Assembly (NCBI GenBank): GCA_903830725.1
Contig: CAIKVH010000017.1
Location: 1-41,435, forward strand
Source: an uncultured Burkholderiales bacterium
Lineage (GTDB): Bacteria > Pseudomonadota > Gammaproteobacteria > Burkholderiales > Burkholderiaceae_C
Length of the DNA stretch: 41,435 nucleotides
Reading direction: 5' to 3'
Shown: one piece after another, positions 97-26,907 of the stretch
Layout of the letters: every line of letters starts with the position of its first letter
Numbering within the stretch: position 1 is the first letter of the stretch
Position numbers and translations under genes: made by a program
Notes under the pieces: generated by a model
Databases searched by the model: none
The model's input: only the letters and a program-made list of their open reading frames with translations
What the model was told of the DNA's origin: nothing

Positions 97-125
97 TTAA
101 CTTACACAAAATCCTTTACAGTCCC
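97..125 (-). repeat. Terminal end sequence of the IS256-type element
   Basis: Read on the minus strand, the end starts GGGACTGTAAAGGATTTTGT and continues toward the transposase start at 48. A 28/29 match to it lies at 29565-29593 in the same orientation. Its outer edge (about 125) is fused to the coding sequence of the ligase-like gene. The last nine codons of that gene (GDCKGFCVS plus stop) come from this IS end. The other end of the element and its target-site duplication are outside the window. Confidence 0.65.
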
Positions 126-1542
126 CTTTTTCCCAACCTTTTTTTATATTCGCCTCGATCAACTCCTCTGCAAGTTTCATAGCTTGAACTTCGTCTGGTG
201 CAGGACGAACTTCCCTATCAAGAGGGGATGCTCGACCAGCGCTGTAATCTGTCCAATGCACAACGAACTCAGGATAAAGACTGTTAACCTTAGATTTATT
301 TGTCTTCCATACTAATAACTTTCGAACAGCTAGTTGACCCTTTGTTGTCTTAGTCCAAACTTCCCGTCTCAACACAGTACTTGTGGGAAGGGGGCCACTT
401 GCAACTATAGTTACCCGACCGGATGGTAAATATTCTTCAACCTGGGCGAAGCGGACGTCAGTTTCATTGATCTTTTTGTCCTCCCTTATCCGCTCAAATA
501 CTGGGTGCAATAGACTTGGCGATTGAACTGATCCAACCAGAGTCCATTCGTCATTAGAATAACCAACAGTTGATACAACTGGGATACTGCCATCTGACAA
601 TTCGCCTTGTAGATCAGTCACAACAAACTGCGCAACTATCTCAGGCTTGACGAACTGGTATAGCCCCCCACTGTCGCTTGCTCTTCGCACGCGCGACTCA
701 GTGTTTAATTTACTTAGTCGTTTAAACCAATCAAGTCGATCTGCATTTGAACCAATATTTCCACAGGCACCTACAACTGCGTAACTACCCTCTTTCGTAA
801 TTAGTCCGAGCAATATCGATCTACATGCCTTAGGCTCGTCGGCTTTTACGGTATAGCCTATGACAACCGCGTCAATGTTAATCTCAGGTTTAACTTTGTA
901 GACAATTCCATTTGCATGATGAACAACTAAGCCCTCGCTACTTCCGTTTAGAACATCTGCTGTAAAACGTTCGTGCACCTCTAGACCTGTATGCAAAGCA
1001 GTCACTTCTACAACGTTGAAATGAGAACCATCCGACACCAACTGGGTGATCTGCTTTAGTTTCTCGTCATAGGCAATGGGCACAGGTTGTCCGGCTATTT
1101 GAAGACTATCAAAAGCTACATACATCAGATTGTCATCTGCATTTTTCCCGTCTTGAGCTAAGGCGCTTGCCAAATCGCCCACACGCTCGCGGCGGCCCGA
1201 AACTTTTGCGTACAACTCCCCAGCCAAAATACTGTTATCGGGTAGTGATTTAGCCTCGGTCAGGACTGGCAACTTACCTGCGATTACTGAACCAGAAGGA
1301 CTTGCAAGGAAAACCTCCTTGCCCTTATTTACTAAAAACCAGGTTTCACCGTCAAACTTTCTAGAAACCCACATATTAGATGCACTTAACTCCCCTAGTT
1401 TGCTAGGGGGTAGCGAACGATATGAGCTTGCCACTCGTCGTTTATAGGCTTGAAGAAGCTCAATCAAAGCAGGGTCGGATAATCTTGCATATTTGACCCC
1501 ACCACCAAACGGCTCTCCTCCAGTATAGTTTTTAGAAGTCAT
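97..1542 (-). CDS. DNA/RNA ligase-like covalent nucleotidyltransferase, 3' end replaced by an IS end
   Basis: Carries the ordered motifs of the ATP-dependent ligase/capping-enzyme superfamily. Motif I is KFDG at about residues 62-65, where the lysine would take AMP. Motif III is LAGEL near 108, motif IIIa is VAFDSL near 144, motif IV is EGLVV near 203 and motif V is YKVKP near 216. About 250 further residues follow, which may hold an OB-fold-like part and an extra domain. The start chosen is the ATG at 1542. It overlaps the upstream gene's stop as TGATG and has a GGGGGC ribosome site. The last nine residues are encoded by an IS256-type end, so the natural C-terminus is lost or altered, probably by little. 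It is third in a leftward operon divergent from MoxR/VWA/LRR genes. Whether it joins DNA or RNA, or only adenylylates, cannot be told. Confidence 0.72.
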   Translation of the reverse strand: MTSKNYTGGEPFGGGVKYARLSDPALIELLQAYKRRVASSYRSLPPSKLGELSASNMWVSRKFDGETWFLVNKGKEVFLASPSGSVIAGKLPVLTEAKSLPDNSILAGELYAKVSGRRERVGDLASALAQDGKNADDNLMYVAFDSLQIAGQPVPIAYDEKLKQITQLVSDGSHFNVVEVTALHTGLEVHERFTADVLNGSSEGLVVHHANGIVYKVKPEINIDAVVIGYTVKADEPKACRSILLGLITKEGSYAVVGACGNIGSNADRLDWFKRLSKLNTESRVRRASDSGGLYQFVKPEIVAQFVVTDLQGELSDGSIPVVSTVGYSNDEWTLVGSVQSPSLLHPVFERIREDKKINETDVRFAQVEEYLPSGRVTIVASGPLPTSTVLRREVWTKTTKGQLAVRKLLVWKTNKSKVNSLYPEFVVHWTDYSAGRASPLDREVRPAPDEVQAMKLAEELIEANIKKGWEKGDCKGFCVS

Positions 1543-2255
1543 CAATCGCCCCCTTTTGCCACCGCAGGCAGTTTAAGTTCCATATCACTTAGAAGTAAGG
1601 TTAACCGGTAGGCTGTTCCTTGAGTCGCTCCTTCTAGGAAGCCACGATAAGGTCGCCCGTTTGCCTGAAATATCAAAGGGCCAGTGCCCTTCTCCCCCGT
1701 GCCTAATAGCATGACGCTGTGCGCGGACTCTAGTTCCTGCGCCATTCCATACAAAAATTCATAAGTCAATCCATCGCTATGGCGAAGTTGCATCCGCCTT
1801 TTGAAACTAAACTTCCTTACGGCTTCAGATACGTCAATTTTTTTTCCTGTCCACCTGACGGGCGAGGTCGAGTCGGTGTTAGATTCCGTTTCTTGAGGGT
1901 CTCTGCGCTCGCGTTCACTTCCATCCGGATTAAGAAGTAGCTCAATCATTTTAGGTTCTATTGTGAGCACTTCCCCATTAGGATCAAGATAAACAGTTTG
2001 CATTTGCTCTAAATACATACCTACATGCTCTAAATCAACTTCGGGATCCCCCTGAACTAGATGGTTTGCGTAATCTCCGCCAAATTGGCTTGCCATTGAA
2101 GCATGTGTTCCAGACTCGGTGCAAGCAACATAACGGCGAAAAATAGTTTTTTTGCCTGGCAGCGACAGCTTTGGAGCTGACGCAGGTTTGATCGTTGCGA
2201 TCGCTATGAATGCATCGCGACCTTTAGGATTGGTAAGGTGAATGTTAGTAGTCAT
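1542..2255 (-). CDS. Unrecognised 237-residue protein of the ligase/MoxR island
   Basis: No known domain is recognised. The protein is soluble-looking, with no signal peptide or membrane segment. It has a charged, low-complexity linker around residues 110-135 (repeated E, R, D, S, T) separating two compact halves. The C-terminal half contains a glycine-rich stretch (GTGEKGTGP) near 190. It is translationally coupled to the ligase-like gene (TGATG overlap) and starts 8 bases after the previous gene ends. Coupling suggests it acts with the ligase-like enzyme, perhaps as a specificity or scaffold subunit, but this is inference only. Confidence 0.6.
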   Translation of the reverse strand: MTTNIHLTNPKGRDAFIAIATIKPASAPKLSLPGKKTIFRRYVACTESGTHASMASQFGGDYANHLVQGDPEVDLEHVGMYLEQMQTVYLDPNGEVLTIEPKMIELLLNPDGSERERRDPQETESNTDSTSPVRWTGKKIDVSEAVRKFSFKRRMQLRHSDGLTYEFLYGMAQELESAHSVMLLGTGEKGTGPLIFQANGRPYRGFLEGATQGTAYRLTLLLSDMELKLPAVAKGGD

Positions 2256-2263
2256 ATGAAGCC

Positions 2264-2866
2264 TTATAGCATTTCAAAATCTAGGTCATCTTCTGCCTGT
2301 GCAGCATCAATAGGAGGAGTAAAACTTTCCCCCTCCTGCACCCATTCGACACTAAATGGCTTACCCACCAAGGCAAAATAACCTTGATCATTAGCAATAA
2401 GGAAACTACGTTCGACCTCTAGACTAGATGTGTAATTGAAATCACATTCGAATATCTCGCCCGATTTGAGTCGATTGAGCAGGGTCCCTTCAGTTTGCTC
2501 TGGGTTAAGCCTATAAACCGACAGCAACTCAAGATCTAAAACACGGGAAGCCTCAACTGGACCGCGGAGGGCTTGGGCAATCCCTAGGGTGGAGGGCTTA
2601 CTTTCCACAATGGATCCATCAGGGGCAACTCCTACAAGACTAGAACGGGGGACGAATTTATCCTGATCATCAAAATACCCCTGCCCAGACATACCAGATG
2701 CGATCAGCAATTGCCCATCCTGAGTCAGCGATGCCCGAGTACACGAGTTACCTTCTGCGTCCAAGGGAACGCGCTTGCGAGCCCCATAAAGATCGCTACG
2801 CTCAATTTTGTTTATGGCAAAACTAAAAGTCTCCTGCCCTAGCGTTACCATGAGTGGCTTAGCCAT
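2264..2866 (-). CDS. Unrecognised 200-residue protein, first gene of the leftward island operon
   Basis: No family is recognised. The sequence is rich in beta-type segments (MVTLGQETFSFAINKIER at the N-terminus) and ends in a strongly acidic tail (QAEDDLDFEML). No signal peptide or membrane segment is seen. The start ATG at 2866 has a GGGA ribosome site about 8 bases upstream. It is the promoter-proximal gene of the operon that continues into the 237-residue protein and the ligase-like protein. It faces the MoxR gene across a 116-base divergent promoter region, which ties its expression to that of the ATPase operon. Confidence 0.6.
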   Translation of the reverse strand: MAKPLMVTLGQETFSFAINKIERSDLYGARKRVPLDAEGNSCTRASLTQDGQLLIASGMSGQGYFDDQDKFVPRSSLVGVAPDGSIVESKPSTLGIAQALRGPVEASRVLDLELLSVYRLNPEQTEGTLLNRLKSGEIFECDFNYTSSLEVERSFLIANDQGYFALVGKPFSVEWVQEGESFTPPIDAAQAEDDLDFEML

Positions 2867-2982
2867 ATGTGTTCCCTTACAATAATAGAGATAATTCTTG
2901 AGCCGTTATTTAACTTTTTATATTACACTAAATTAGATAACAATTATATTTTACACGTCAAACTTAATTTCGAGTCCATTCT
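2867..2982. promoter_or_regulatory. Divergent promoter region between the two island operons
   Basis: This 116-base AT-rich gap separates the leftward (unknown-unknown-ligase) and rightward (MoxR-VWA-LRR) operons and must hold both promoters. A plausible leftward promoter is TTGACG (plus-strand 2956-2961) with a 16-base spacer to TATCTA (2934-2939). A weaker rightward candidate is TTGAGC near 2898 with TATTAC downstream. No clear operator palindrome was seen. The box assignments are visual only. Confidence 0.4.
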
Positions 2983-4143
2983 ATGTCTGATGACTACATC
3001 ACCTACGGCGCCAAACTAGATTCTGAGTCTGTTACTCGTGCGCTAGATCATATTTTTCGCACAAACCTGGCCAATGAAGAAAAATCTGCACCAGATTCCT
3101 CGGGAACAAATGGTAAACGCCCAACGCCAGTTTGTATTTGGGGGCTACACGGTATTGGAAAAACCGCGATAGTGAAATCTTTCGCAAATGAAAACGGCTG
3201 GAAATTTCGTTATTGCGCACCAGCTCAATTCGAAGAAATGGGCGATTTGAACGGTCTTCCAGTAAAAAATGACCCGAATCCAGACATAGTCGGTGACGAG
3301 ACTACTATTTACATGCCTCCCGATTGGGTCCCTAGTGAGGATGATGTGGGACCTGGAATACTACTGCTGGATGACTTGAACCGTGCGGATGACCGAATAT
3401 TGCGAGGCATCATGCAGTTACTTCAAGAGTTTGAGATGTTTGCTTGGAAGCTCCCTCCAAAATGGCAAATCGTTTGCACCGCAAACCCGGAAGGTGGAGA
3501 CTACTCGGTGAGCACAATGGATGATGCCATGATTACTCGCATGTTGCACTTAACAATGATATTCGATCTCAAGGCTTGGAGCCGCTGGGCCAACTCTTCT
3601 GGCGTAGACCCCAGGGGCATAGCCTTTGTATTGACCTATCCCGAAGTGATTACTGGAAAGAGGACTACGCCCCGAACTTTGGCTCAATTCTTTGATCAGA
3701 TAGCTCCTATTACTGATCTTAAAAAAGAGTTAGAAATCGTTCGTGTTTTAGCTGAAAGCTCCCTAGATTCGATTACTTCCGCAACGTTCTTAGCCTTTGT
3801 AAACGATGATCTTGAACAATTAATAAATCCCAATGACATTTTGAATGCGGAAAAATGGCTACCTGTTAGTAAACGTATCCATGAATTGGCAACCGGCAAA
3901 GGCGAGTCAAAGCGAGTGGACCGAATTGCTACGATCTGTACCCGACTCTATCTTGCACTGATAGACCCTAAATACAAGCAAGAAGCCCCCCATGCAGGTA
4001 ACCTTACTGAATTCCTAATGCACGAAGACATACCTAATGATTTGCGGTTCAGTCTTCATCGCGATCTGATTTCAGCAGGCGGGGATTTACCAGCAATGCT
4101 TCGCTCACCCAAACTTGCAAAGCTAGTCCTTGGAGGCCTTTGA
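2983..4143 (+). CDS. MoxR-family AAA+ ATPase
   Basis: Shows Walker A (GLHGIGKT, residues about 55-62), Walker B (ILLLDDLNRAD, about 125-135), the MoxR-like segment around MQLLQEFEM, and sensor 1 with CTANPEGGDY at about 165. MoxR ATPases act as chaperone-like remodelers that usually work with a VWA-domain partner. That partner is encoded immediately downstream: the stop TGA shares a base with the next ATG. E. coli YehL is a similar protein beside the VWA protein YehP. The 386-residue length is normal for the group. It is cytosolic, with no signal peptide. The start at 2983 has only a weak ribosome site. It is first in the rightward operon of the island. Confidence 0.88.
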   Translation: MSDDYITYGAKLDSESVTRALDHIFRTNLANEEKSAPDSSGTNGKRPTPVCIWGLHGIGKTAIVKSFANENGWKFRYCAPAQFEEMGDLNGLPVKNDPNPDIVGDETTIYMPPDWVPSEDDVGPGILLLDDLNRADDRILRGIMQLLQEFEMFAWKLPPKWQIVCTANPEGGDYSVSTMDDAMITRMLHLTMIFDLKAWSRWANSSGVDPRGIAFVLTYPEVITGKRTTPRTLAQFFDQIAPITDLKKELEIVRVLAESSLDSITSATFLAFVNDDLEQLINPNDILNAEKWLPVSKRIHELATGKGESKRVDRIATICTRLYLALIDPKYKQEAPHAGNLTEFLMHEDIPNDLRFSLHRDLISAGGDLPAMLRSPKLAKLVLGGL

Positions 4144-5459
4144 TGGCAAAGGCTACAGGTACTGCTAAAAGTGCCAAGCCTCCGGTTAATGTGTCGGATG
4201 AGGTCAGTCGAGGCATTATTGCCTTACTGCTCAAAGAACCATTTTACGGCCATCTATTAGGAGGAGTGGTACGAAGCGTTGATGATCGAATTCCTACGGC
4301 AGCTGTAGCGATCACACCCCAAGGTTTGCAGCTAATTGTCAACCCTCTCTTCTTTATGAATGAACTTAAAAAAGATGAGCGAGTAGCAGTAATTAAACAT
4401 GAAGCATTGCACCTCTTATTTCGTCATTTGTACAGACCTCTATTAAAAAAGGGTGACGCAAAGCTATTTAATATTGCAGCAGATTTAGTGGTTAACCAAC
4501 ACATAGCGCCTTGGCCACTGCCAGATATGGCAGTGACAATCAAGCAATTTCCCGATATGGGTCTTGAACCGAATATGACATTGGAGTGGTATTACGAGAG
4601 GTTAAGCAATCTAAGAGATGATATGCAAAGTGGCCAGGACGATGAAGGGGAAAAGGGAGAAAAAGGTACCAGTGGAGATAAATCTCCCATTAGTAAAAAA
4701 GCACTTAAACAAGCATTGATTCAAGAGCAACAAGGCGATCACAGTTTTTGGATTTCCGGGGCAGGAACTGAGCTCAATGAATCTGGAGCCGAAAGTCCAA
4801 TAACAGAGGCCATGAGACAGGCACTAGAATCCGACCTTGAACGACATTTGCTACGAGCAAAGGATCAAACTACAGCCAAGGCCTGGGGGAGTATTCCATC
4901 ACAAATTCGCCAGGAATTAGAAGCAATGGCTGAACGACGGAAACCCCAAATCGATTGGAAACGTACATTAAGGCTTTTCGCTAGCAGCGGATACCGTACC
5001 AAGGTCGTCGCAACCAATCGACGCGCATCCAAGCGGTTTGGCACCTTCCCAGGTATTCGCATACAGCGTAAACAACGTATAGCTGTTGTAATTGATACCT
5101 CAGGCTCCATTCAAGAAAACACTCTGACCCTATTTTTTAGCGAAATTCACGGAATATGGAAAAACGGCGCAGAAATTATTGTAGTTGAATGTGATGCTGC
5201 AGTGCAGCAGACATATTCGTATAAAGGAAAAAAACCCACCGAAGTACAGGGCGGTGGCGGTACGCTATTTGACCCAGCCCTAGCATGGGTACGTACACCT
5301 CGAAATGGGCCTTTCGATGCATGCATATTTCTTACAGATGGATACGCCTCCGAGCCCACTACACCTCCGCGATGTCCCTTATTATGGGTAGTAACTTCAG
5401 ACGGGAACACTGGAGATCACCTCAAATTCGGTAGAACTGTGAAATTACCTGCTACTTAA
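4143..5459 (+). CDS. Zincin-like metallopeptidase domain fused to a VWA domain (DUF2201 type)
   Basis: The N-terminal part (about residues 15-140) matches the DUF2201_N metallopeptidase-like type with the zinc motif HEALHLLFRH near residue 86. A charged linker rich in E, K, G and D follows near 160-185. The C-terminal VWA domain has a MIDAS motif DTSGS near 316, GGGGTLFDP near 365 and FLTDGYAS near 398, so metal binding looks intact. The start is the ATG at 4143, because GGAGG lies 6 bases upstream and it is coupled to the MoxR stop. The upstream in-frame TTG is less likely. The protein is the expected partner of the MoxR ATPase. It could be a regulated protease or a dead zincin used for binding; the sequence cannot decide. 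Confidence 0.85.
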   Translation: MAKATGTAKSAKPPVNVSDEVSRGIIALLLKEPFYGHLLGGVVRSVDDRIPTAAVAITPQGLQLIVNPLFFMNELKKDERVAVIKHEALHLLFRHLYRPLLKKGDAKLFNIAADLVVNQHIAPWPLPDMAVTIKQFPDMGLEPNMTLEWYYERLSNLRDDMQSGQDDEGEKGEKGTSGDKSPISKKALKQALIQEQQGDHSFWISGAGTELNESGAESPITEAMRQALESDLERHLLRAKDQTTAKAWGSIPSQIRQELEAMAERRKPQIDWKRTLRLFASSGYRTKVVATNRRASKRFGTFPGIRIQRKQRIAVVIDTSGSIQENTLTLFFSEIHGIWKNGAEIIVVECDAAVQQTYSYKGKKPTEVQGGGGTLFDPALAWVRTPRNGPFDACIFLTDGYASEPTTPPRCPLLWVVTSDGNTGDHLKFGRTVKLPAT

Positions 5460-5489
5460 GTATTTTGAATTTTTATAGGAACCAAAAAA

Positions 5490-8400
5490 ATGGCCACAGC
5501 TAAGACTGCACGACTAAAACCTCTTAATGCGGAAGCGTCCAGAATATTCAAGCTATGCCAGGACAAAGAGAAAAACACAGCTCTTCAGGGACTGGAACTT
5601 GCCGCAGCCCTGGGTAAACCGCTCGATGGGATACTTGATGAAGTATCTATAAACCCGCAAACCGGAGATCTTGAAAAAGGAAAGCGCTTCTCAGGGAACG
5701 AGAAAACTCAGGAGATGCTTGACGCGTTGTTAATACTTCAGCTTGGGCTTTGTCCAAAGGGTACATCTGGTTATGAAATCCGAACCTCAATCAAAAAACT
5801 TAGCTGCGCAGCACCTGTGATACCAAATCTGAATAATTTCACATCTCTTCAAGAACTTGAACTTAGGCTATCAGCAGACTTTGTTGGCGAGGATGTTAAA
5901 AACTTAGGAGATTTGTCTAAATTAAAAAAACTAGAGATTAAAAAATATAACCTTTGGTATTCTCCTGAAAGACCAATCCTTAAAACCCTGAATGGATTAC
6001 AAACTCCAGCTTTAGAGGAACTTATAGCCAGTCATTTGAGTTTGACTGATGTGAGTGCATTATCAAAATGCGAGAGACTAAAGAAAATTGATTTGCAAGA
6101 CAATAAAATAAATTCTCTAGAATTTATCAAGCCAAGTTTAAAAAGTATTGTTTCAATTGATGTTTCTCGCTGCCCAGGTATTACATCCCTAGAATGTATA
6201 AGTGATGCAAAACGATTAACTCATTTGGATATATCGGGACTTACCTCCATAAAGGATCTTGTCCATCTTGAAAAAATTTCTACTCTTAAAACTCTGGACT
6301 TTAGACAATGTGAGAGCCTACAAACGCTAAAGGGTATACCAATGAAATCCCTATGTAGTCCAGACAATACAGCAGATGAAGAGCCAGGCAATGACTTTTA
6401 CCTTTATGGATTGAAGGGTTTACTATCACTCAGGGATATGCCTCCCCTAAGCCAAGAAGTTGAAGTACTAGCAATTACGCAATCTGTTTCACTTAAAGAT
6501 CTTAAGGGTCTTGAAGCCTCACAGGCTTCACTCAAAATCCTAAAGATCAGTAAAACCAATATTACCGACTTAAAGGTAATTAGTGAACTTATCAATCTAG
6601 AAGTGCTAGAAATAACAAACTGCGATGAACTTATTGATGCAAGTGCCATTGGAAATCTAAAAAAACTTCAAAAAGTAACTATAAAAAGTTGTAAAAAGCT
6701 AGAAACCCTACCTGATATATGGCAATCATCGGTTAGTGTTCTCTCGCTCGCACATTGCCCTGCACTTAAAACAATAAAAGCCTTACCTCCAGGAATCGAT
6801 GCTAAAACAATAGAAATAGATAACAGGCGACTATTGCCGCGAGCTAAACCAGTAAGAGCACTAAAATCAGACTTAGGTGCCATTTGGAAGTTGCTTTCAT
6901 CTCGGGAAGTTGCAAATATACAAATGGGTCTTGAACTCTCTGTGGGGGTTGAAGAGGGCTTAGATACGCTGTACGAAGGCGTAAGCGTCAAAGACGGCCA
7001 ACTGATTAGGGGCAAACGTTTTACTGGTACGGGCCCCGCTCAACCCTACCTTGACTTAGCTCTTCTTGGTCTAATGAGTCGGGCGCAGCCTAAGAGTGCC
7101 TTAGCCACGATGCGAGAAAAAATTACAGAATTAAAATTAACACTAGCACCAATATCACCGGAACTACAAGGCTTCAATAATTTAAAGTCTATAAACTTGA
7201 GTGCAATAAATGGTAGTACTCCCGATCTTTCAAATTTTGGAAAGTTACCTAAACTAATAAATTTAGAGGTCGAGGGTGAGAGGTGGAGTGTAAAGGGAGA
7301 GCTATGCTCTCTAAGAGGACTTGATGCTCCAGATTTAAAAATCGTAAAGCTGAATGATTTGAATTTAGTAGACATTTCAGCACTAGTTAATTCCCCCAAA
7401 ATTACAAAACTAAATTTGGCGGGCAATGAAAATTTAGATGACATTACCCCGCTACGAGCCTGTGCAGATAAACTGGAGGAATTAAATCTACAGGGGTGTA
7501 AAAAATTATTACTTATCGATACACTCATGAATGCGCGAAAATTAAGTTCACTTTATCTAAACGATTGTGAAAATATAAAAAGCATTAAACCGCTAGCAGG
7601 TTGTAGTGCATTAAAAAATTTGAGCCTCACTAATTGTCGCAATCTAATCAGCTTAGAAGGCATTCAAGACCTGACAGTACATTCTAAATTGTATGAATTT
7701 GAAAAAGAAACATTTTCGCTAGATGGTTGTAACGCTCTCACATCTCTTGAATTCTTTCCGAATTTACCCAAAGAGGTTATCCGTCTTTCGTTTGACTATA
7801 TGGGAGCATTAAAAAACTTCAAGGGGATGAGATCTCTCAATCAAGTTATAGGATTAACTGCTTGCAACTCAGGCATAAGTGATCTAAAGGATTTAGGAGT
7901 TTTAGAAAATCTTCAAGGAGTTGATCTAAGCAACAATCCAAATCTTGCTGATGCAACTCCAATTGGCAATTTGCTTTCATTAAATAGCGTAAAAATGAAT
8001 TCAAGCGGAGTTCGATTAATGCCAAACTCATGGAGAAGTTCAGTTACGAATTTAGAACTAAAAAACTGTGCGTCATTGAATTCACTGGGAGGGCTACCCG
8101 ACGCACTAAATACCATTCTCCTTGACGGCTGTGCTGGATTAGTAAAAATTGATGGGATGAAAACATGCGATCGACTCAAAAGTATTTCAGCTGACAACTG
8201 TACTGCACTCAGCGATCTTGGTACTCTGCCCTCAAGCCTAAATAAAATTAGTCTCCTAGGCTGTTCAAAATTAAAAACTCTTAATGGATTAGAGGCTTGT
8301 AACTCACTTCAATCCATTGCAGTTCCAATTTCTATAACTGATGCATCTGCATTAAAAAACTTAGAGCGCGTAACATTGAAAGTAAACATCCTTGAAATCA

Positions 8401-8789
8401 CTTCCAAGCAAAATAAAAAAGACCCCTCTCCTGGGTTTCCAGAATCTTTTACAGTAGCAATAAGTAATTTAAAGTCAGTAGATTTAAAATTGATAGGAGG
8501 TTCAAACTATTCTTCATCTGTAGCTTTTGATCTTGCATCAATCACAAAATTTGAAAATCTTAATACCCTAGACTTTTCAGAATATAACTTTAGTTGCGAT
8601 ACAGGATCGCTATCGTGGATCGTTGATTTTAAGGATCTAAAGGGGCTCTGGTTCTATCCACATGGAAGCATGTCATATAGGCTTAAACAGGGCACAAGCA
8701 TTTACGACACACCAGGAAAAATTAAAAAGCTACAACTTAGCATTTGTGCAGAGGCAAAGATACCTACTCCAGTTCACTTGCTAGATTAA
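5490..8789 (+). CDS. Large leucine-rich-repeat protein with two copies of an N-terminal helical module
   Basis: The 1099 residues consist almost wholly of short leucine-rich repeats of the LxxLxLxxCxxLxxL type, many with cysteine or asparagine at the loop position. A short helical module with the pattern ...GLELAxxL...GxLxxGKRFxG... appears at about residues 10-90 and again at about 456-540, each followed by an LRR array. The protein is therefore an internal duplication of module plus LRR. There is no signal peptide, membrane segment or enzyme motif. It has a good ribosome site (AGGAA) 30 bases after the VWA gene, so it is the third gene of the MoxR operon. By analogy with other LRR proteins it is a likely recognition or scaffold subunit. 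That role is inferred. Confidence 0.8.
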   Translation: MATAKTARLKPLNAEASRIFKLCQDKEKNTALQGLELAAALGKPLDGILDEVSINPQTGDLEKGKRFSGNEKTQEMLDALLILQLGLCPKGTSGYEIRTSIKKLSCAAPVIPNLNNFTSLQELELRLSADFVGEDVKNLGDLSKLKKLEIKKYNLWYSPERPILKTLNGLQTPALEELIASHLSLTDVSALSKCERLKKIDLQDNKINSLEFIKPSLKSIVSIDVSRCPGITSLECISDAKRLTHLDISGLTSIKDLVHLEKISTLKTLDFRQCESLQTLKGIPMKSLCSPDNTADEEPGNDFYLYGLKGLLSLRDMPPLSQEVEVLAITQSVSLKDLKGLEASQASLKILKISKTNITDLKVISELINLEVLEITNCDELIDASAIGNLKKLQKVTIKSCKKLETLPDIWQSSVSVLSLAHCPALKTIKALPPGIDAKTIEIDNRRLLPRAKPVRALKSDLGAIWKLLSSREVANIQMGLELSVGVEEGLDTLYEGVSVKDGQLIRGKRFTGTGPAQPYLDLALLGLMSRAQPKSALATMREKITELKLTLAPISPELQGFNNLKSINLSAINGSTPDLSNFGKLPKLINLEVEGERWSVKGELCSLRGLDAPDLKIVKLNDLNLVDISALVNSPKITKLNLAGNENLDDITPLRACADKLEELNLQGCKKLLLIDTLMNARKLSSLYLNDCENIKSIKPLAGCSALKNLSLTNCRNLISLEGIQDLTVHSKLYEFEKETFSLDGCNALTSLEFFPNLPKEVIRLSFDYMGALKNFKGMRSLNQVIGLTACNSGISDLKDLGVLENLQGVDLSNNPNLADATPIGNLLSLNSVKMNSSGVRLMPNSWRSSVTNLELKNCASLNSLGGLPDALNTILLDGCAGLVKIDGMKTCDRLKSISADNCTALSDLGTLPSSLNKISLLGCSKLKTLNGLEACNSLQSIAVPISITDASALKNLERVTLKVNILEITSKQNKKDPSPGFPESFTVAISNLKSVDLKLIGGSNYSSSVAFDLASITKFENLNTLDFSEYNFSCDTGSLSWIVDFKDLKGLWFYPHGSMSYRLKQGTSIYDTPGKIKKLQLSICAEAKIPTPVHLLD

Positions 8790-14063: not shown

Positions 14064-14112
14064 AATATTTATGCTAATTTAATCGCTCATCCACTGTGAT
14101 ACACGAGCAAAT

Positions 14113-15138: not shown

Positions 15139-15598
15139 AGTATCTTCTCCGTTTGATGGATGAACTCTTAAGAACAAAAGATAAGTTAAATCATAGACCA
15201 CAAGATCCACAAAGGGTATCAGGGTATGCATGTAGAAAATAGGACTTCGTTCTTAATATTCGTTTTCAGATTAAATAAAAAATTCTTTTTGAGAAAAGTT
15301 ACAGAATTGAAAGCTACGCCCGCTCGGAAAATTGAGTAGATTCCAATAAGTTAAATCACAAGAAATTAGCGATCTAATTAAATAAAAAATGAAAGCCTGT
15401 CGTAAACCCTTCAGGGATAACACCAGTTAGAAATAGAGTGCGAAATGAAAATTTAATGAATTAAAAAGTTATTATGTTGGAGTAAGCTTTGATCTAAATA
15501 AATAAGAAGTAGTCAGCGTTTGATTGGTCAAAGTTAATACGAGTTGAGTAACTAAGTTAATAAACAAAATTAGAAAATTAATGAAAAGGATATTCGAA
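15139..15598. promoter_or_regulatory. 460-base divergent region between two TRAP operons
   Basis: This gap separates two divergently transcribed DctP genes and must hold promoters for both. It is AT-rich. No rho-independent terminator, riboswitch, tRNA or repeat was recognised. A short CCCT/AGGG inverted repeat at 15407-15416 is too small to call an operator. A small minus-strand ORF across part of it has no supporting signals and was left out. Confidence 0.3.
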
Positions 15599-16615: not shown

Positions 16616-16676
16616 TTTAAGAGATTACTAAGAACCATTTCAATAACTATCAATTTATTATTATTCAAGGCAATCC

Positions 16677-19199: not shown

Positions 19200-19415
19200 T
19201 TAATATTTTTTGATTTCTACATACCCTTCTTTAAGTTTTTTTGTAATTGCCTTTTGCTCTTCAAGTCCTGCTGCACTTGCAGAATCAAACTCTTTAGTCT
19301 TGCTTTGACCAGTAGCACCAATTTTTCCATAATGAACTGTCATCGAATTAGCACTACAACTAATCTCCCAAAATTTATTAGATTTTTCATCTTTAAATTC
19401 AAAATACCTTGGCAT
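19200..19415 (-). CDS. Single-domain WGR protein
   Basis: The start is ATG 19415 (MPRYFEFKDEK), which has GGAG 7 bases upstream. The longer in-frame start has none. The 71 residues form one WGR domain: an FEF...KFWEI strand pair, then VHYGKIGATGQSKTKEF and a C-terminal helix LEEQKAITKKLKEGYVE. WGR domains occur in PARP enzymes, where they bind DNA ends, and in bacterial MolR/YehI-type proteins encoded near MoxR and VWA genes. Here the domain stands alone, 18 bases upstream of a kinase-like gene. It may be a nucleic-acid-binding or adapter subunit of that pair. Confidence 0.82.
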   Translation of the reverse strand: MPRYFEFKDEKSNKFWEISCSANSMTVHYGKIGATGQSKTKEFDSASAAGLEEQKAITKKLKEGYVEIKKY

Positions 19416-19605
19416 AATAATCTCCAAATAATAAGTAATTTAAACATCGATACCGATTTAAAACTCTATGATATAGCAAAGCATTTAAAAATTAGATTTT
19501 GTTTTCTACTTTCTTAGCCTACGATATTTCATTTTTCAAAAAAGACGATTATTATCAATTACATATCAATAATAATACTTTATATGTATCTAAAAAACTT
19601 TAACA

Positions 19606-20423: not shown

Positions 20424-23400
20424 TTAATGGTTATGACTCCCTTCTTCGCTGTTCATAATATCCAACAAAAGTAGTTTTCGACCCGATGCTACGATTGCCG
20501 TCGTACCGATTAATCCAAACAAACGAAGACTCTCGCCATGCCAGCGTACATGGAGTCCCGACTTTCTATAAACAAGTTTAATGGCCTGGCTTGTTCCCTG
20601 AGACCACCACTGTCCCGAGCGATATGCTCCTGCAACCACAGACAACTCTTCCCAGGGGCTGGGGTAAGGAATTACATCTATCCAAAATGCAGGACAGACC
20701 GATATCTGGGAACCGCTTTGGGGACTCCAAAGACGCAGAGTGGCGTCTTCCTCAGCCCATGATAAAAGGTTACCTTCGGAATCGATAACCTCAGCGTCTT
20801 CCACCATCCCTTGATGCCCCTCCAATACAGATATCAAATCACCACTATTAGAGTCCCAAAGGTATAGCGTTCCAACTGAAAAGGCCACCAAAACCATATC
20901 GTTGGGCAACGCTTTGGCGAAGACTATATACCCAATTGCACCGTCCTCCAAGGCATCCGAACGCGAGTAATAACCTGACGGGAAGTACTCTGAATCCTCT
21001 TCAATTAGCTTTAGCGTTGCCCCAGTTGAAGCATCCCAAAAACGCAAGTTATTTTGTACGTCCCATGACAGCCCACGACCATCAGGTAAGAAGTACCCAC
21101 CATCGGCCTTTTCGATCTTCACCGTCTCGAATAACGACTCCCCACTTTTACCATCCCAAAAAAGTATCGTGCCGTCATCTGACCAAGACACTAGTCTTCC
21201 GTCGGGTAGCAATTGGGCATCCAGGATGCTCCCGGTATGACCCTGCAAGGTCGCTGTGTTAGTACCGCTGTCGGGGTCCCACAGCCGGAGCGTCTGGTCG
21301 TCAGACCAAGATAAAACTCTACCGTCATGCAATATTTTTGCCCCTCGAATAAGCCTCTTGTGTCCTTTCATCTCAACTATGGGTAGCCCGCTATTCACAT
21401 CCCAAAGTCTAAGTGTTTTGTCTTCAGCCCAAGAAAGTAATCGGGCACCACGCACGGCTTCAACAAAAGAAATTCGATGCGAATGACCAACTTCACCCGC
21501 GGCAAGGGAACCAGCAACGCAATTCCAAAGTCGCAAGGTTTTATCTGATGACCAAGACAAAATCTGGCCACTTGGAAGGATTTGAGCTCCCGATACTTGG
21601 CTTTTATGTCCTTCTAGCAAAGCGAGAGGTGCTCCACTTTGCACGTCCCATAGCCTCAGCGTGCTATCTGCCGACCAAGACAACAGACGACCATCGGACA
21701 ATACCTGCGCACCAAGAACCTTATCAATATGCCCCTCTAGAACGGTAAGTAATGCTCCACTCTCACCATCCCAAATGCACAAAGTGCCACTCACGGACCA
21801 TGACAACAAACGGCCATCAGGAAGTAACTTCGCACCCAAGACGGATCCTGCGTTTGCCTGTAGAACTAACAAAGGAGCGCCCGTAACACGGTCCCATATT
21901 CGCAGTGAATTGTCTGCTGACCAAGAAAGCAAACGCCCGTCTTTCATTTGTAACGCGCCAAGTACTGAGTCTGTATGTCCTTGCATCACGACAAGCGTTT
22001 CAGTGGTTTTGAGATCCCACAAGCGCAGGGTTTTGCCTCCCCAGGTTAGGGCTTGGCCCTCGGGCAAAATCAAGGCGCCGTTAATTGTCCACCAACTACT
22101 TTCATCCATGACAGCAATTGATGCGCCACTTTCGCCGTCCCATAATCGCAAAGACTTGTCCTGGCGGCCTTCGTTGCCAGCCCAGGTCAGGATACGGCCG
22201 TCAGCTAGAACCTCAACACCCTTAATTGAATCTGTATGCCCTGACATTACAGAGATTAACTCACCGGTACTGATATCCCACAAACGTGCGGATTTATCAA
22301 AACCTTTCTCATTATCCCCATAGCCACTTGCCCACGAAAGTACCCTTTGATTTCCTAGCACTTGAACTTTATCTACACCTGAGGTGTGTCCCTTCATAAC
22401 AGCAATAAGTTCTCCACTTTCAGCATCCCACAACCGAAGCGTTTTATCCATGGACCAAGACAAAATTCGGTTATCGGCGAGAACCTTAACGCCGGATACT
22501 CCACTTAGATGTCCCTCCAAAACTGCAATAGACTGTCCACTTTGGCAATCCCACAGGCGCAGTGACCCATCCGAGGACCAAGACAACAACCGACCAGTTG
22601 GCAATTGAATAACGTCTAAAATAAGTCCTGTGTGCCCTTTCATTACTGCTATGGGTTTGCCAAGTAGGGTGTCCCATAATCGAAGCGTATGGTCATTCGA
22701 AACTAAATCTCCTGCCCAGGTAAGCACCCGAGAATCACTTATGACGAGAACATCGCTAGGGTGGCTAGAATGGCCTTGCATCACTGCTAATAACTCCCCA
22801 TTCTCGCAATCCCATAAGTGCAGACACTTTTCATTCGAATCGTGGCCACCGGTCCAAGAAAGAACGCGGTCGTTGGGCAACAACTTGACGCCTGCAATTG
22901 AGCCCGCATGCATTTCGAACAATAATAGCCCACTCGCAACATCCCAAATGCAAACCTTGTTCACAGACCAGGAGAGTAAACGGTTGTTTGAAAGAACTTC
23001 CACGCCTTCAATTTGATCTAAGTGACCATGCATGACCGCTAAAGATGCACCGCTATAGCCATCCCATAAGCGCAAAGAATTATCATCTGATGCATGACCT
23101 CCCGCCCATGAGATAAACCGCCCGCTAGGTAAAACCTTAACCCCTGTAATCGAAGCAGTATGACCCTGCATCACGGCAAGTAAATCGCCTTTTGCGGCGT
23201 CCCACAAACGCAGAGTACCGTCTGTTGACCAGGATAGAAGTCGGCCGTCGGGCAACACCTCTACATCCCAGATTCGTCCCTTGTGTCCGTTTAGGACTGC
23301 GAGTTGCTTACCATCATCCGAATTCCACAATCTTAAAGTGTTATCGCTCGACCATGACACCAACCGGCTATTGGGTAGCTCACGAACTCCCCAAATAAAA

Positions 23401-26400
23401 TTTGTATGCCCTTGCATGGCTGCTAAAGCAGCGCCACTTTCGGAGTCCCACAACCGTATCGCTGTTCCTCCCCAGGACATAATTCGTCCGTTGCTTAGAA
23501 TTTGAGCATTTGAAATACTTGGTGGTGTTCCCTCCATAACCGCAACCGCTACCCCGCTCTGTTCACTCCATAAATGCAAAGAGTGATGAGTCCAAGATAG
23601 TATTTGCCCACCGGGGAGAAATTTAGCCCCGTAAACATCCTTTGCATGGCCCAACATGTTTACCAACTGCAAACCACTTTTACCATCCCAAAGGCTTAGT
23701 TGTCGATGTGACCACAATAAAGCTCGACCGTCCAGAAGAACTTGAGCTCCAGTTATACCGAAAACACCTACTTCTGCCTTGGAGAGCAAAGTTCTTCCTT
23801 GTGCATCCCATAAATTCAGCATACCGTCCTGAGACCAAGACAAAATTTCTCCGGTCGTCAAGAGTTGCCCTCCCAAAACACGCCGCTTGTGGCCCTCCAA
23901 AACTGCTAGTGGCGCTCCATTCTCTGAGTCCCATAGACGCAGGGTACAGTCCCCCCAGGAGAGTACTCGTCCACCTGGCAAGAGTTTCGTTCCATACACA
24001 GATTCACTGTGCCCCTCCATCACCGCCAACAATGCATTACTAGCCACAATCCTTGGCCTTATTCGATTCCTTATCCAGACCCAATCGCAGCTACTTGAGC
24101 TAAGCCAAACCTGCGCTGCCTTGGTGATAATGCTATCGTCCGCATGTTCAACGCTCAGTTGCAGTAGTATTTTGTGCGCCGGCCAATGCGGGACACCTCG
24201 TCGTAAAATGTGAGCGTTTGCAAATACAAAACTCATCCATAGCCAGGCCTCGCTTTTTGATTCGCTATTATTTTTTATGATGTCATAATTTTCGAGCAAA
24301 TCATCAATCTGGTTGTATGCGCATTTGCCCATACAAAACCCAAAATCAGTTAACAAGTACCTTAGGTCATCATATCTTGAGGCCATTGATAACTGCCAGG
24401 GCTGCTCCATGACCCTGCGCAAAGCGACACTGATCTGCTTACCACCTGCGTCTGTGGATTTAAACAAAGCATTGTCGTTTGTTTCGTTTGGACGTATTTC
24501 CCTATCCAATTCTTTAAACATATCAGCCAATGCACCGTGGATATCCTTTTTGTGCTCCAGGTTTGACAAATATCTTTCTTTAAGCGATTCGGTGAACTCT
24601 CGGTGAAACCAACGCATCACAATTGCACCGTCCACCTCGGCTAGTCCAAGGTAAGGTTGCAGGTCAAAGAAAAGTCGCGACCAAATTATTGGAGGTAATG
24701 ACTTATAACTATTCCACTTAACCTGCGCTTTCTCATTCGCTTGAAACTCTTCACGTACTTGCTCATCTGTTCCTAAAACGCGTCCTAGTTCCTCCTCAGA
24801 TAGCCCAGATCTTCCCGCCGTAAGATATGCCAAAGCACGTTCTGTAAATACTTTCGGGTGGTTCTGTCGTCTAAGTAATCGAGTCTCTATCAATTCCTTA
24901 ATAAGTCCATCAACTGTCAAGGGCAACTCACCCGGTTCGTCCCACGAAGCCCAGGTACTCGCCTCTTCATAAGCCAGTTTGAGCCAAAGCGCTGATCCGT
25001 TTTCGCAGAATGCATTGAGTACAGCATCCTTTTGCTTCAAAGTTAACTGACGGCCAACGGACGGTGCTATTCCTGCATTAAACCAGGCCGATTGTTTATC
25101 AGCCAACCAAGCATCCAACATAAAACGTCCGTCTTGAGCGTTCATGGCAGGTACTTCAACCCAGTTGGTAAACCTTCTCTTGGCTGATTGCTCAACATTG
25201 GTGCTCGCTCGAAGGGAAACTACAATGCGTGAATACACAGGCAAATCAATGGGTAGCCATTCCAAGGTCCAGGCATTGTCTTTACTGTCAAGTTGATCTA
25301 GCGCATCCAAATACAGGTGTAGCGGGCGATCAGTGCTTGAATAGCCTAAGACTTTTACAAAAGCTTCAAATAATTGCTTTGCATTCTCTGGGACAGTCGG
25401 CTCTGGTTGTCCGAACAAACGAGATATATCGTTGGTCAAATCTAAAAGCAGGGTCATTAAAGACTCCGTCCCGGGAACTCCTCCAATGTAGCGCTGGACG
25501 ATTACGGCATTGTTGGACTCCCTTTCCAGATCGGATCTTGCGGATTTTGCTAGAAGTGCTGATTTGCCACTTCCTCCGAAGCCGATCAATACCAGGGGGG
25601 GGGTTGATAAATTAGCTTCTATATTCCCTGTGTATTCGGCAACCTGAGTTAGAAGTTCCTTGCGCCCAGCAAAGACCTTGGATCGACTGGCTCCAAACTC
25701 AAGATGTGCACGAATGCGCTCGTTCATTTCATCTAAGTGATCTATTGCCGAGAGCTCAGATGCAATCAAATTCTTTTGGTGAAGTAAAAAGAGCTTACAA
25801 AAATTGTCTAAATAATCTTGATCAATCGCAGAATTTTTGCCATGCCGATCCCATTTGGTTTCTAATTCATGTACATGATTACTAAGACGGGTTCGAAGTT
25901 CTGTCTCTAACTCAGCTAATCGATCTCTAGCGCCGGGGACAATGCTTGAGTTCTTGGCATCCCAGTCAATATAGTGACGTGCACTCTCCTCCTTAGGCAA
26001 TCCCTCTAAGCGTCGAACGTACACGTGGACGTGGTTAGGCGCATCGGCGGTTAATAGTGCCCCTAGTGCAATTTCTTGGTGCGTTGCTGAAGCAAAGTAA
26101 GGTAATCGGTCATTGCCTTGAAAGCCCGCCGCATCAACAGTACGTCTTAAAGCGGCGAGCAATTGGTTTTCTTCAGATGCACTCTCGTCCCAGGTACCTT
26201 TGCGATTGTGAAGGTGGTAGACAGGGGGAACCGCGTTATGGTCAGGCCCTTGGTAACCAGCAATGATTAAATTGGCATCTTTTGCAGTTGCAACCGCAAT
26301 AATTCGATCCCAGTGCGATAGCGGTATTCTCGCTGGTACTGGCTCCCAACCATAACGATCTCCTAAAAGAACTGCAAAGTTTGGTCTTGGAGATAGCAAC

Positions 26401-26624
26401 TGCGAGTGACGCACTTCTTCTAAGCAAATGCGCATTGTGTCGTGCTCAACCTGAGCTTCTTCGGTAATTCCCCATCGCAAATCCACTGCTTGAAAGCGAG
26501 CTCCCTTTTCGGCACAGAAACGCTCAAGCTCGGGAAATACGCATTTTTGTAATGCTTCTCGCTCGGCGGTAAAGTCACTAAACGTGGAGCTAATGAAAAG
26601 ACGAAATGTGCGATTAGGTATCAT
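20424..26624 (-). CDS. DUF4062-NACHT-WD40 STAND NTPase, 2066 residues
   Basis: The N-terminal domain (residues about 8-120) is DUF4062, with FISSTFSDFTAEREAL and VDLRWGITEE. This TIR-related domain is found in NACHT-WD40 proteins such as TEP1 and NPHP3. A NACHT-type NTPase follows, with Walker A GFGGSGKS at about 346-353 and a Walker B-like LHLYLDALDQLD near 437. A helical winged-helix and TPR-like region runs to about 865. The rest is about 26 WD40 blades of some 38-46 residues with consensus LLSWSxDxTLRLWD. STAND proteins of this shape are signal-sensing switches, often in defence against phage. The WD40 array would be the sensor and DUF4062 the effector or signalling part. The gene has no near neighbour in its direction, and no clear ribosome site was seen. 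Confidence 0.9.
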   Translation of the reverse strand: MIPNRTFRLFISSTFSDFTAEREALQKCVFPELERFCAEKGARFQAVDLRWGITEEAQVEHDTMRICLEEVRHSQLLSPRPNFAVLLGDRYGWEPVPARIPLSHWDRIIAVATAKDANLIIAGYQGPDHNAVPPVYHLHNRKGTWDESASEENQLLAALRRTVDAAGFQGNDRLPYFASATHQEIALGALLTADAPNHVHVYVRRLEGLPKEESARHYIDWDAKNSSIVPGARDRLAELETELRTRLSNHVHELETKWDRHGKNSAIDQDYLDNFCKLFLLHQKNLIASELSAIDHLDEMNERIRAHLEFGASRSKVFAGRKELLTQVAEYTGNIEANLSTPPLVLIGFGGSGKSALLAKSARSDLERESNNAVIVQRYIGGVPGTESLMTLLLDLTNDISRLFGQPEPTVPENAKQLFEAFVKVLGYSSTDRPLHLYLDALDQLDSKDNAWTLEWLPIDLPVYSRIVVSLRASTNVEQSAKRRFTNWVEVPAMNAQDGRFMLDAWLADKQSAWFNAGIAPSVGRQLTLKQKDAVLNAFCENGSALWLKLAYEEASTWASWDEPGELPLTVDGLIKELIETRLLRRQNHPKVFTERALAYLTAGRSGLSEEELGRVLGTDEQVREEFQANEKAQVKWNSYKSLPPIIWSRLFFDLQPYLGLAEVDGAIVMRWFHREFTESLKERYLSNLEHKKDIHGALADMFKELDREIRPNETNDNALFKSTDAGGKQISVALRRVMEQPWQLSMASRYDDLRYLLTDFGFCMGKCAYNQIDDLLENYDIIKNNSESKSEAWLWMSFVFANAHILRRGVPHWPAHKILLQLSVEHADDSIITKAAQVWLSSSSCDWVWIRNRIRPRIVASNALLAVMEGHSESVYGTKLLPGGRVLSWGDCTLRLWDSENGAPLAVLEGHKRRVLGGQLLTTGEILSWSQDGMLNLWDAQGRTLLSKAEVGVFGITGAQVLLDGRALLWSHRQLSLWDGKSGLQLVNMLGHAKDVYGAKFLPGGQILSWTHHSLHLWSEQSGVAVAVMEGTPPSISNAQILSNGRIMSWGGTAIRLWDSESGAALAAMQGHTNFIWGVRELPNSRLVSWSSDNTLRLWNSDDGKQLAVLNGHKGRIWDVEVLPDGRLLSWSTDGTLRLWDAAKGDLLAVMQGHTASITGVKVLPSGRFISWAGGHASDDNSLRLWDGYSGASLAVMHGHLDQIEGVEVLSNNRLLSWSVNKVCIWDVASGLLLFEMHAGSIAGVKLLPNDRVLSWTGGHDSNEKCLHLWDCENGELLAVMQGHSSHPSDVLVISDSRVLTWAGDLVSNDHTLRLWDTLLGKPIAVMKGHTGLILDVIQLPTGRLLSWSSDGSLRLWDCQSGQSIAVLEGHLSGVSGVKVLADNRILSWSMDKTLRLWDAESGELIAVMKGHTSGVDKVQVLGNQRVLSWASGYGDNEKGFDKSARLWDISTGELISVMSGHTDSIKGVEVLADGRILTWAGNEGRQDKSLRLWDGESGASIAVMDESSWWTINGALILPEGQALTWGGKTLRLWDLKTTETLVVMQGHTDSVLGALQMKDGRLLSWSADNSLRIWDRVTGAPLLVLQANAGSVLGAKLLPDGRLLSWSVSGTLCIWDGESGALLTVLEGHIDKVLGAQVLSDGRLLSWSADSTLRLWDVQSGAPLALLEGHKSQVSGAQILPSGQILSWSSDKTLRLWNCVAGSLAAGEVGHSHRISFVEAVRGARLLSWAEDKTLRLWDVNSGLPIVEMKGHKRLIRGAKILHDGRVLSWSDDQTLRLWDPDSGTNTATLQGHTGSILDAQLLPDGRLVSWSDDGTILFWDGKSGESLFETVKIEKADGGYFLPDGRGLSWDVQNNLRFWDASTGATLKLIEEDSEYFPSGYYSRSDALEDGAIGYIVFAKALPNDMVLVAFSVGTLYLWDSNSGDLISVLEGHQGMVEDAEVIDSEGNLLSWAEEDATLRLWSPQSGSQISVCPAFWIDVIPYPSPWEELSVVAGAYRSGQWWSQGTSQAIKLVYRKSGLHVRWHGESLRLFGLIGTTAIVASGRKLLLLDIMNSEEGSHNH
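25595..25603. repeat. Nine-G homopolymer (C9 in coding sense) just before the NACHT Walker A
   Basis: Nine consecutive G on the plus strand encode the proline pair of STPPLVLIGF in the STAND protein, about 10 codons before the Walker A lysine. Long G/C runs are rare in this AT-rich sequence. Slippage would shift the frame and remove the NTPase and all WD40 repeats. As assembled, the frame is intact. Confidence 0.85.
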
Positions 26625-26907
26625 AATGAGTATTGATTACTAATTTGTATATCAAAGGTATATCATATGCATATTATTGTTATTATTTAGCCGAAATCTG
26701 TCTAATAAAACACATTTTGGTGCTCGCGTTAAATAAAAAAGATACATTAAATCATATACTTACACATATTTTCTTGGGAATTCAGTTGCTTTATAAGTAT
26801 TAGATTTTCTAAAATCCAGAATTCGAGCAGAATATTAAAATTAAATCTAAAAATGCGGTTAAGAATTAATTACTTAACTCAATTTTAAACTCATGGGGAT
26901 ATCAATA
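26625..26907. promoter_or_regulatory. Divergent intergenic region between the STAND gene and the DUF4116 gene
   Basis: This AT-rich gap of 283 bases must contain the promoters of both divergent genes. No terminator, operator palindrome or RNA gene was recognised in it. Several TATA-like stretches occur, but none could be tied to a convincing -35 box. Confidence 0.3.

Follow-up and report, generated by a model that had tools for sequence, protein, structure and literature searches.

A DNA-ligase-type gene trio recurrently linked to MoxR–zincin-VWA genes in distantly related bacteria

Do a ligase-like gene with two companions of no recognizable family and the MoxR operon that faces away from them form one genetic unit, and on what might such a unit act? 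The question arises at one end of a 41,435-nucleotide stretch of DNA (hereafter the window) from an uncultured Burkholderiales bacterium (GenBank assembly GCA_903830725.1, contig CAIKVH010000017.1, positions 1 to 41,435). In its listing of open reading frames (ORFs), two tight operons diverge from a 116-base gap, with UNK2–UNK1–LIG running leftward and MoxR–VWA–LRR (leucine-rich repeat) running rightward, and the genes within each operon overlap by 4 bases or lie 8–30 bases apart. An earlier note, made from the sequence alone, had described the same six ORFs, two operons and gap, and its coordinates proved exact:

97..1545, minus strand: LIG, predicted ATP-dependent DNA-ligase-type nucleotidyltransferase with an OB fold and a conserved, weakly WGR-like C-terminal domain (Pfam PF01068/PF04679, family profile)
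1542..2255, minus strand: UNK1, constant LIG partner (proximity to LIG; no credible Pfam or PDB match)
2264..2866, minus strand: UNK2, LIG partner with a conserved acidic C-terminal tip, DDLDFEML (proximity to LIG; no credible Pfam or PDB match)
2867..2982, no strand: divergent intergenic gap of 116 bases (ORF coordinates)
2983..4143, plus strand: MoxR-clade AAA+ ATPase (relatives, Walker A)
4140..5459, plus strand: DUF2201 zincin (HExxH) fused to VWA (MIDAS motif DxSGS) (Pfam)
5490..8789, plus strand: LRR protein of two related halves, both opening with a ~100-residue module (Pfam LRR families, half-versus-half alignment)

The gap holds a weak sigma-70-like site at 2922–2950 (+), with 2 sites within 2700–3100 against 0.8 expected. 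We find that the two halves of the locus are separable modules, A (LIG–UNK1–UNK2) and B (MoxR, zincin-VWA and often LRR), and that the link of the LIG trio to MoxR–VWA is real and repeated, but not obligatory.

The two modules recur together

To place the locus among its relatives, gene families were called by six-frame profile search. A five-row MoxR alignment identified 203 relatives in genome_contigs, the best 80 of which were kept; 50 of these 80 loci were carried forward (L035 and 29 lower-ranked loci were left out), giving 49 MoxR-bearing genomes once L045, from the same metagenome-assembled genome (MAG) as L039, was set aside. In a whole-genome profile search, 15 of the 49 contained LIG, detected through its C-terminal domain at an E-value of 8e-63 or better, and four further genomes had weak matches to the LIG nucleotidyltransferase region only. 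Together with the window, a genome of the same genus (G876) and nine of the order of G593, a MAG of Flavobacteriales, these constitute 26 ligase genomes; G1085 (L216), with ~55 residues of the ligase C terminus, stands outside the 26. Because 15 of the 26 come from the MoxR-selected set, the share of ligase genomes with MoxR is biased upward. Organism names are those of the record titles, and MAGs may be misbinned.

LIG and window-type MoxR–VWA genes share a locus in 10 of the 26 genomes (the window, L033, L034, L142, L143, L051, L146, L062, L066 and L145), and all six families are present in seven: the window, L033, L142 (L046), L143 (L050), L051, L062 and L066, the six besides the window being titled Burkholderiales, Polynucleobacter, Bacteroidetes and Flavobacteriales. 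By title, the joint loci belong to Burkholderiales, Polynucleobacter, Flavobacteriaceae/Flavobacteriales, Bacteroidetes and Verrucomicrobia, which span three phyla. Because the combination recurs in such distantly related bacteria, it is a real, apparently undescribed and swappable gene unit, and the prospect that the set exists only in this strain is dispelled. The earlier note had also proposed checking how often the six genes co-occur in this order: the families do come together, but gene order between the modules varies. In L066 the matched stretches of LIG and MoxR are on one strand with 78 bases between them, and in L051 those of UNK1 and MoxR are separated by 203 bases. L034 ends within UNK1, and L145 has a truncated LIG and lacks UNK1 and UNK2.

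Whether the ligase usually sits with a different operon, as the same note had allowed, receives a divided answer from the 26 genomes. Beside the ten with window-type MoxR–VWA genes, two have a different MoxR–VWA type: in L140, from the Synechococcus genome of L036, it follows immediately downstream, and in G876, whose ligase gene is divided between the ends of two contigs, it lies 11 kb away. In six, the ~8–10 kb on either side of LIG contain no MoxR (L168, L138, L209, L210, L212 and L214), and the other eight loci have too little flanking sequence for a judgement. The Polynucleobacter sample has LIG and full-length MoxR in the same two of 186 species, where they are adjacent; a further MoxR match there (E 5e-4) is only partial.

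Closer to the window, UNK1 was found in one of 200 genomes of its order and LIG at family-level score in one of 299 genomes of its phylum, in each case the window's own, with two more LIG matches at E ~1e-6. Among 121 relatives of the window, LIG reached family score in two and window-type MoxR was found in one. This last sample was centered on the window, whereas the Polynucleobacter and G593-order samples were centered on LIG carriers (G604 and G593). Single-protein MoxR and LIG scans of IMG/VR gave no matches; a scan with a two-row MoxR alignment that included a distant plasmid MoxR returned a 47% relative, and a second scan returned a 60% relative. The plasmid collection held no UNK1 and one distant ligase only, resembling those of nonhomologous end joining (NHEJ). 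Two plasmid leads (L005 and L006) proved not to be the same system.

LIG is of DNA-ligase type

What kind of enzyme does the trio encode? Profile and motif evidence well supports the prediction that LIG is a nucleic-acid-joining enzyme of DNA-ligase rather than capping or RNA-ligase type. LIG matches Pfam DNA_ligase_A_M (5.6e-8) and DNA_ligase_A_C (2e-5; 25.3 bits, just below the cut-off of 27.5), and a seven-row LIG profile matches archaeal and eukaryotic DNA ligases with a best value of 1.2e-18 over profile positions ~45–312, against only 0.016 for an mRNA capping enzyme. Within the previous assignment as a ligase/capping-type enzyme, the ligase type is the better supported. Motifs I, III, IV and V, described before as intact, are so in the rows that cover them, where motif IIIa and the OB-fold motif VI (HPVFERIREDK in the window) are also present. 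In the catalytic alignment of 18 rows, of which 16 cover motifs I–IIIa and 17 cover IV–VI, residues K63, D65, G66, E110, F145, D146, E204, G205, K217, K219, R354, D356 and K357 are invariant wherever covered; nine later genomes were read by pattern only. Motif I of ligases takes the form KxDGxR. Its arginine is absent in all 19 pattern-readable LIG rows of 27, in which KxDG is followed by E, H, Y or F and no final R.

LIG has in common with ATP-dependent DNA ligases (the archaeal/LigI type and the bacterial NHEJ ligase domain) the nucleotidyltransferase and OB domains and motifs I–VI. It differs from them in having no match to their N-terminal DNA-binding domain and no motif-I arginine, and in having an extra C-terminal domain and constant partners, UNK1 and UNK2. 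The NCBIfam model NHEJ_ligase_lig scores 43.8 bits against LIG, far under its cut-off of 227.75, which does not place LIG among LigD/Ku-type ligases. The C-terminal 100 residues have no Pfam match; their local hhalign probability against a WGR-like alignment is only 31%, and WGR membership is therefore left as weak.

UNK1 and UNK2 accompany the ligase

Neither UNK1 nor UNK2 has a credible match in Pfam, NCBIfam, PADLOC or PDB. Of the 26 ligase genomes, 24 have UNK1 no more than 3 kb from LIG, the exceptions being L145, with its truncated LIG, and L211, on a 6-kb contig. For UNK2 the count is 22, as it is also missing from L034 (contig end) and L138 (not detected). Spacing within the trio is tight, with 22 of 29 measurable gaps between trio matches falling at 5–23 bases. 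In all 14 genomes aligned, the UNK2 C terminus comprises an acidic stretch followed by [LM]DF and a final tripeptide such as EML, SML, GML, EMF or DAL; three more tails read VDFGML, MDFAMF and MDFAMF. Retained across phyla right at the end of the protein, this acidic-hydrophobic tip suggests a docking peptide.

The MoxR operon and described systems

Does module B belong to a known system? Pfam gives only sub-threshold AAA matches for the window MoxR, which is MoxR-like by its relatives, and a Walker A pattern is present in 94 of 94 MoxR profile matches. The VWA protein matches DUF2201 (3.4e-20) and the DUF2201_N metallopeptidase (5.1e-20), with HExxH in 68 and DxSGS in 70 of 73 VWA profile matches (some genes are counted twice in both the MoxR and the VWA sets). 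It ends 3 residues past the DUF2201 match, with zincin and VWA the only domains matched and no effector domain fused to it. The halves of the LRR protein align at 30% identity over 443 columns (E 3e-41). The MoxR, DUF2201 zincin-VWA and duplicated LRR assignments made from the sequence alone are thus borne out. The ~100-residue module of the LRR protein occurs in 13 of 84 related loci against 0 of 38 other loci. An LRR component need not be present; two related LRR clusters cover 22 and 12 loci. L030 and L038 have identical MoxR sequences, and the window's genome contains two further distant MoxR-type genes (G000 C141:2103-2597 and C101:304-813), with a VWA match beside the first (L169). Against PADLOC-DB 2.0.0, searched up to E 0.1, the six proteins gave one weak match, of MoxR to PDC-S01 (0.0099), and no model matched the other five.

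MoxR–vWA ternary conflict systems have third components such as VMAP, iSTAND, FtsH and beta-propellers, with effectors typically accompanying the vWA, according to the available part of their description (Kaur et al. 2020, PMC7159879). The window resembles these systems in its MoxR AAA+ gene adjacent to a vWA gene, a further large component, patchy spread and variable neighbors, and differs in its zincin-fused VWA, LRR large component and attached DNA-ligase module. For the large protein of its MoxR operon, LRR families gave the only matches, and there is a WD40 protein at a distance of 11.6 kb. The accessible text of PMC7159879 contains no WGR, BRCT or DUF2201, uses ‘ligase’ only in the ubiquitin sense and has LRR only in a reference title, and no mention of a DNA ligase, BRCT or WGR was found in that of a 2021 follow-up (PMC8195603).

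Group 2.2 jumbo phages carry a MoxR–zincin–vWA pair with a proposed role in virion assembly (PMC7824862, in the part available). Its domain layout is that of the window pair, but its setting is a phage, and that part mentions no LRR or ligase trio with the pair. Homologs are found here on phage-like contigs (L023, L031 and L032; MoxR identity 37–47%), where the pair adjoins genes read as nuclease, DnaJ-like and replication genes. The window is not a phage genome, its other ORFs reading as bacterial metabolic genes.

No description of the six-gene set was found in open-access literature on MoxR, VWA, LRR, DUF2201, WGR, DUF4116 and RNA repair, which does not by itself prove novelty; the earlier note likewise knew of no described system with such a combination. 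A WGR-like part of a Bacteroides fragilis structure (2ra8; PDB title, uncharacterised protein) matches parts in these clusters. We take 2ra8 to comprise WGR and LRR parts, LRR likewise occurring in these clusters, and we know of no link of 2ra8 to a ligase.

The six genes behave as one block

If the modules act together, are their histories related? Protein distances correlate between LIG and UNK1 (r 0.94), between MoxR and VWA (0.95) and between LIG and MoxR (0.77, Mantel p 0.0003, 9 loci). An 85-row MoxR tree, built by a quick method with SH-aLRT as its sole support measure, divides into two halves with support 100. Trio-bearing genomes all fall in one half (16 of 39 tested rows versus 0 of 11, p 0.008, the rows not being independent), with 8 label changes, and the three phage rows (L023, L031 and L032) fall in the other, in which none of the tested rows bears the trio.

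Between the two Polynucleobacter loci (L062 and L066), dS is infinite for five of the six genes, with synonymous sites near or at saturation, and we therefore used the proportion of synonymous differences (pS) and protein identity. The six genes have pS values of 0.72–0.81, against 0.39–0.44 for four genes of an adjoining operon encoding OmpA-domain, DUF4407 and caspase-domain proteins (Pfam, L062; positions 12953–20885 of L062 and 12572–20419 of L066). Protein identity is 94% for MoxR, 85% for VWA, 79% for UNK1, 70% for LIG and UNK2 and 57% for LRR. Because synonymous divergence is so much higher than in the next operon while the proteins are conserved, the six genes behave as a single block that is under constraint and has a separate history; LRR changes fastest.

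Neighboring genes

Which other genes keep company with the trio? LigA/RFC1-type BRCT proteins are encoded in the trio stretch of L142, L143, L140, L209, L210 and L211, and BRCT is fused to the LRR protein in L065/L145 (3.9e-10) and in the trio-less L030 (0.0027); PDB matches back BRCT in L142 and L065. Of 25 trio genomes, 8 have BRCT in the stretch, compared with 1 of the 74 MoxR loci whose stretch has no trio (p 5e-5), a set that includes six loci (L036, L037, L044, L049, L052 and L059) with the trio elsewhere in the genome. L051 was set aside, as the iterated BRCT search also matched its LigA-like gene, as well as an ordinary DnaQ-BRCT protein in a control. DUF4116 is encoded at 26.9 kb of the window and recurs in the LIG stretches of L209–L211 and L215 and in 4 of the 74 MoxR loci whose stretch has no trio, but in none of 13 controls. 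WGR-like mini-proteins or parts are encoded at 19.2 kb of the window and also in L030, L055 and L057. Homologs of the window's 2066-amino-acid WD40/P-loop protein are present in 5 of 84 MoxR loci versus 0 of 38 others, and WD40 homologs lie inside the clusters of the two closest relatives, L033 and L034.

Some neighbors were seen in single clusters. L065 encodes a 1558-amino-acid DUF285–BRCT–LRR protein (12375–17962, +) beside a ligase-like gene without motif I; in L145 a second VWA fragment adjoins. The G876 cluster encodes an NAD-dependent-ligase-like protein with WGR-like and BRCT-like parts (L167 12161–14806, −) and proteins read as SbcC/SbcD-like, ankyrin, TIR-like and SLOG-like, of which the SbcC-like one has no PDB match. 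Ion-channel genes of ligand-gated or voltage type stand beside the trio in L146 (13437–15713, +; Pfam) and L210 (6586–7425, +; read as such), and relatives of the L210 gene occur in L208 and L209.

A candidate system for handling DNA breaks

What might the genes do together? We tentatively favor, at a little less than an even chance, a modular system for handling DNA strand breaks in which a ligase complex is coupled, in some lineages, to a MoxR–VWA–LRR remodeler. The BRCT, WGR-like and DUF4116 neighbors indicate DNA breaks, and we infer that DNA is the substrate of the LIG complex. Module A would be a dedicated complex for sealing DNA ends or nicks, in which LIG would adenylate and join DNA ends with UNK1 and UNK2 as constant partners, and the acidic UNK2 tip might, speculatively, dock a partner protein. 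Module B would be the remodeler: the LRR protein would direct the complex towards a signal or target, a peptide (perhaps the tip of UNK2) could be held at the MIDAS site of VWA, and MoxR, as a ring, might pull the complex apart or reshape it, with proteolysis by the zincin also possible. The docking step, the order of action and the purpose, whether anti-phage defense or repair, are speculative. The scheme inferred in the earlier note, in which LRR sensing, ATPase/VWA remodeling or proteolysis and ligase action on damaged nucleic acid would go together, is a possibility.

A wider reading, which we regard as conceivable though doubtful, takes the trio as the core of an undescribed, widespread bacterial DNA-break response system with interchangeable partner sets and an SSB-tail-like docking tip on UNK2. 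The partner sets would then be, with the same reserve, MoxR–zincin-VWA–LRR in some lineages and BRCT, WGR-like, DUF4116 and ion-channel proteins in others. Many bacterial MoxR–VWA pairs are unassigned, and the ligase link would give one of them a likely target, broken DNA. It would also assign a role to UNK1 and UNK2, two families without a known fold. Modular addressing of a repair or immune enzyme is suggested by the neighbors of LRR, BRCT and WGR-like type.

Several observations weigh against a break-handling system built on both modules. None of the nine further LIG loci of the G593 order (Bacteroidota) has MoxR–VWA in the fetched stretch, which reaches ~9 kb both ways in four of them; module A therefore does not need B. 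No LRR of the window's family was found in L061/L146, and the L065 ligase is without the nucleotidyltransferase half that bears motif I. Against a random control, BRCT enrichment is not significant (9 of 26 versus 1 of 13, p 0.07), and the deltaproteobacterial copies (L138 and L168) lie among genes read as housekeeping.

Is the purpose instead immune? The locus could be an anti-invader conflict system of the MoxR–vWA type, with the ligase module as effector or antidote, for instance sealing host DNA while a nuclease or caspase acts; we take this seriously without judging it probable. Patchy, cross-phylum spread would fit it, and a defense role is plausible given the caspase and BREX neighbors: the caspase/DUF4407 operon adjoins the six genes in L062 and L066, and BREX genes stand beside the G876 trio by reading of genes, the neighbor set as a whole matching BrxA, BrxB, BrxC and PglX models. 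The WD40/P-loop homologs of L033 and L034 are likewise immune-like. A close caspase homolog (E 0) occurs in the same 2 of 186 Polynucleobacter genomes as the six genes (some match occurs in 30 of 186), and the far greater divergence of the six genes than of the caspase operon looks like cassette exchange. Yet 100 neighbors matched 108 PADLOC families against 125 for 100 control proteins (drawn from 119 neighbor ORFs, 19 LRR/WD40-like or broken ones being dropped, and from 188 control ORFs). The clustering in defense islands that the earlier note had suggested checking did not exceed control, and enrichment is therefore not claimed. The copies in housekeeping surroundings also argue against a conflict system, as does the search for an empty site through the caspase operon elsewhere in Polynucleobacter, which found none, close matches being confined to the two carriers.

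That two independent modules merely gather in the same genomic islands, with no joint function, we consider unlikely. Each module does occur without the other, and inter-module gene order is not fixed, but joint loci in three phyla, the adjacent coincidence in 2 of 186 Polynucleobacter species, the LIG–MoxR distance correlation and the close spacing in L066 and L051 all speak for a connection. An RNA ligase or capping-type enzyme of an RNA-repair system is a poor candidate: the missing motif-I arginine in the 19 readable LIG members and a match of one of seven members to Pfam RNA_ligase (0.0045) favor it, but DNA ligase profiles dominate, RNA ligase and capping families not being the best profile match, the RxDK of OB-fold motif VI is present, and the neighbors include BRCT proteins and the NAD-ligase-like protein with a WGR-like part. 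Finally, it is very improbable that the MoxR–VWA pair derives from phage machinery for virion assembly, either domesticated or within a prophage, for although phage-like contigs carry the pair and virion assembly has been proposed for the jumbo-phage pair (PMC7824862, in the part available), no phage structural genes were seen among the window ORFs, the phage rows fall in the trio-less half of the MoxR tree and LIG had no match in 50,697 phage records or the IMG/VR scans.

Other features of the window

Three genes farther along the window may be associated with the system:

19203..19439, minus strand: stand-alone WGR-like protein, a 79-codon frame of ~71 amino acids from its ATG (family common to L030, L055 and L057)
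20424..26624, minus strand: 2066-amino-acid WD40-repeat protein (WD40 match; homologs in L033, L034, L042, L036 and L054)
26893..28494, plus strand: DUF4116 repeat protein (family also in L030, L209–L211 and L215)

Because these WGR-like, WD40 and DUF4116 associates lie at 19.2–28.5 kb, the island may once have reached 28.5 kb, with metabolic genes now between. The WD40 protein begins with what we take to be a P-loop and a DUF4062-like region. A longer ORF on the opposite strand overlaps the WGR-like frame at 19203–19439 and is probably spurious.

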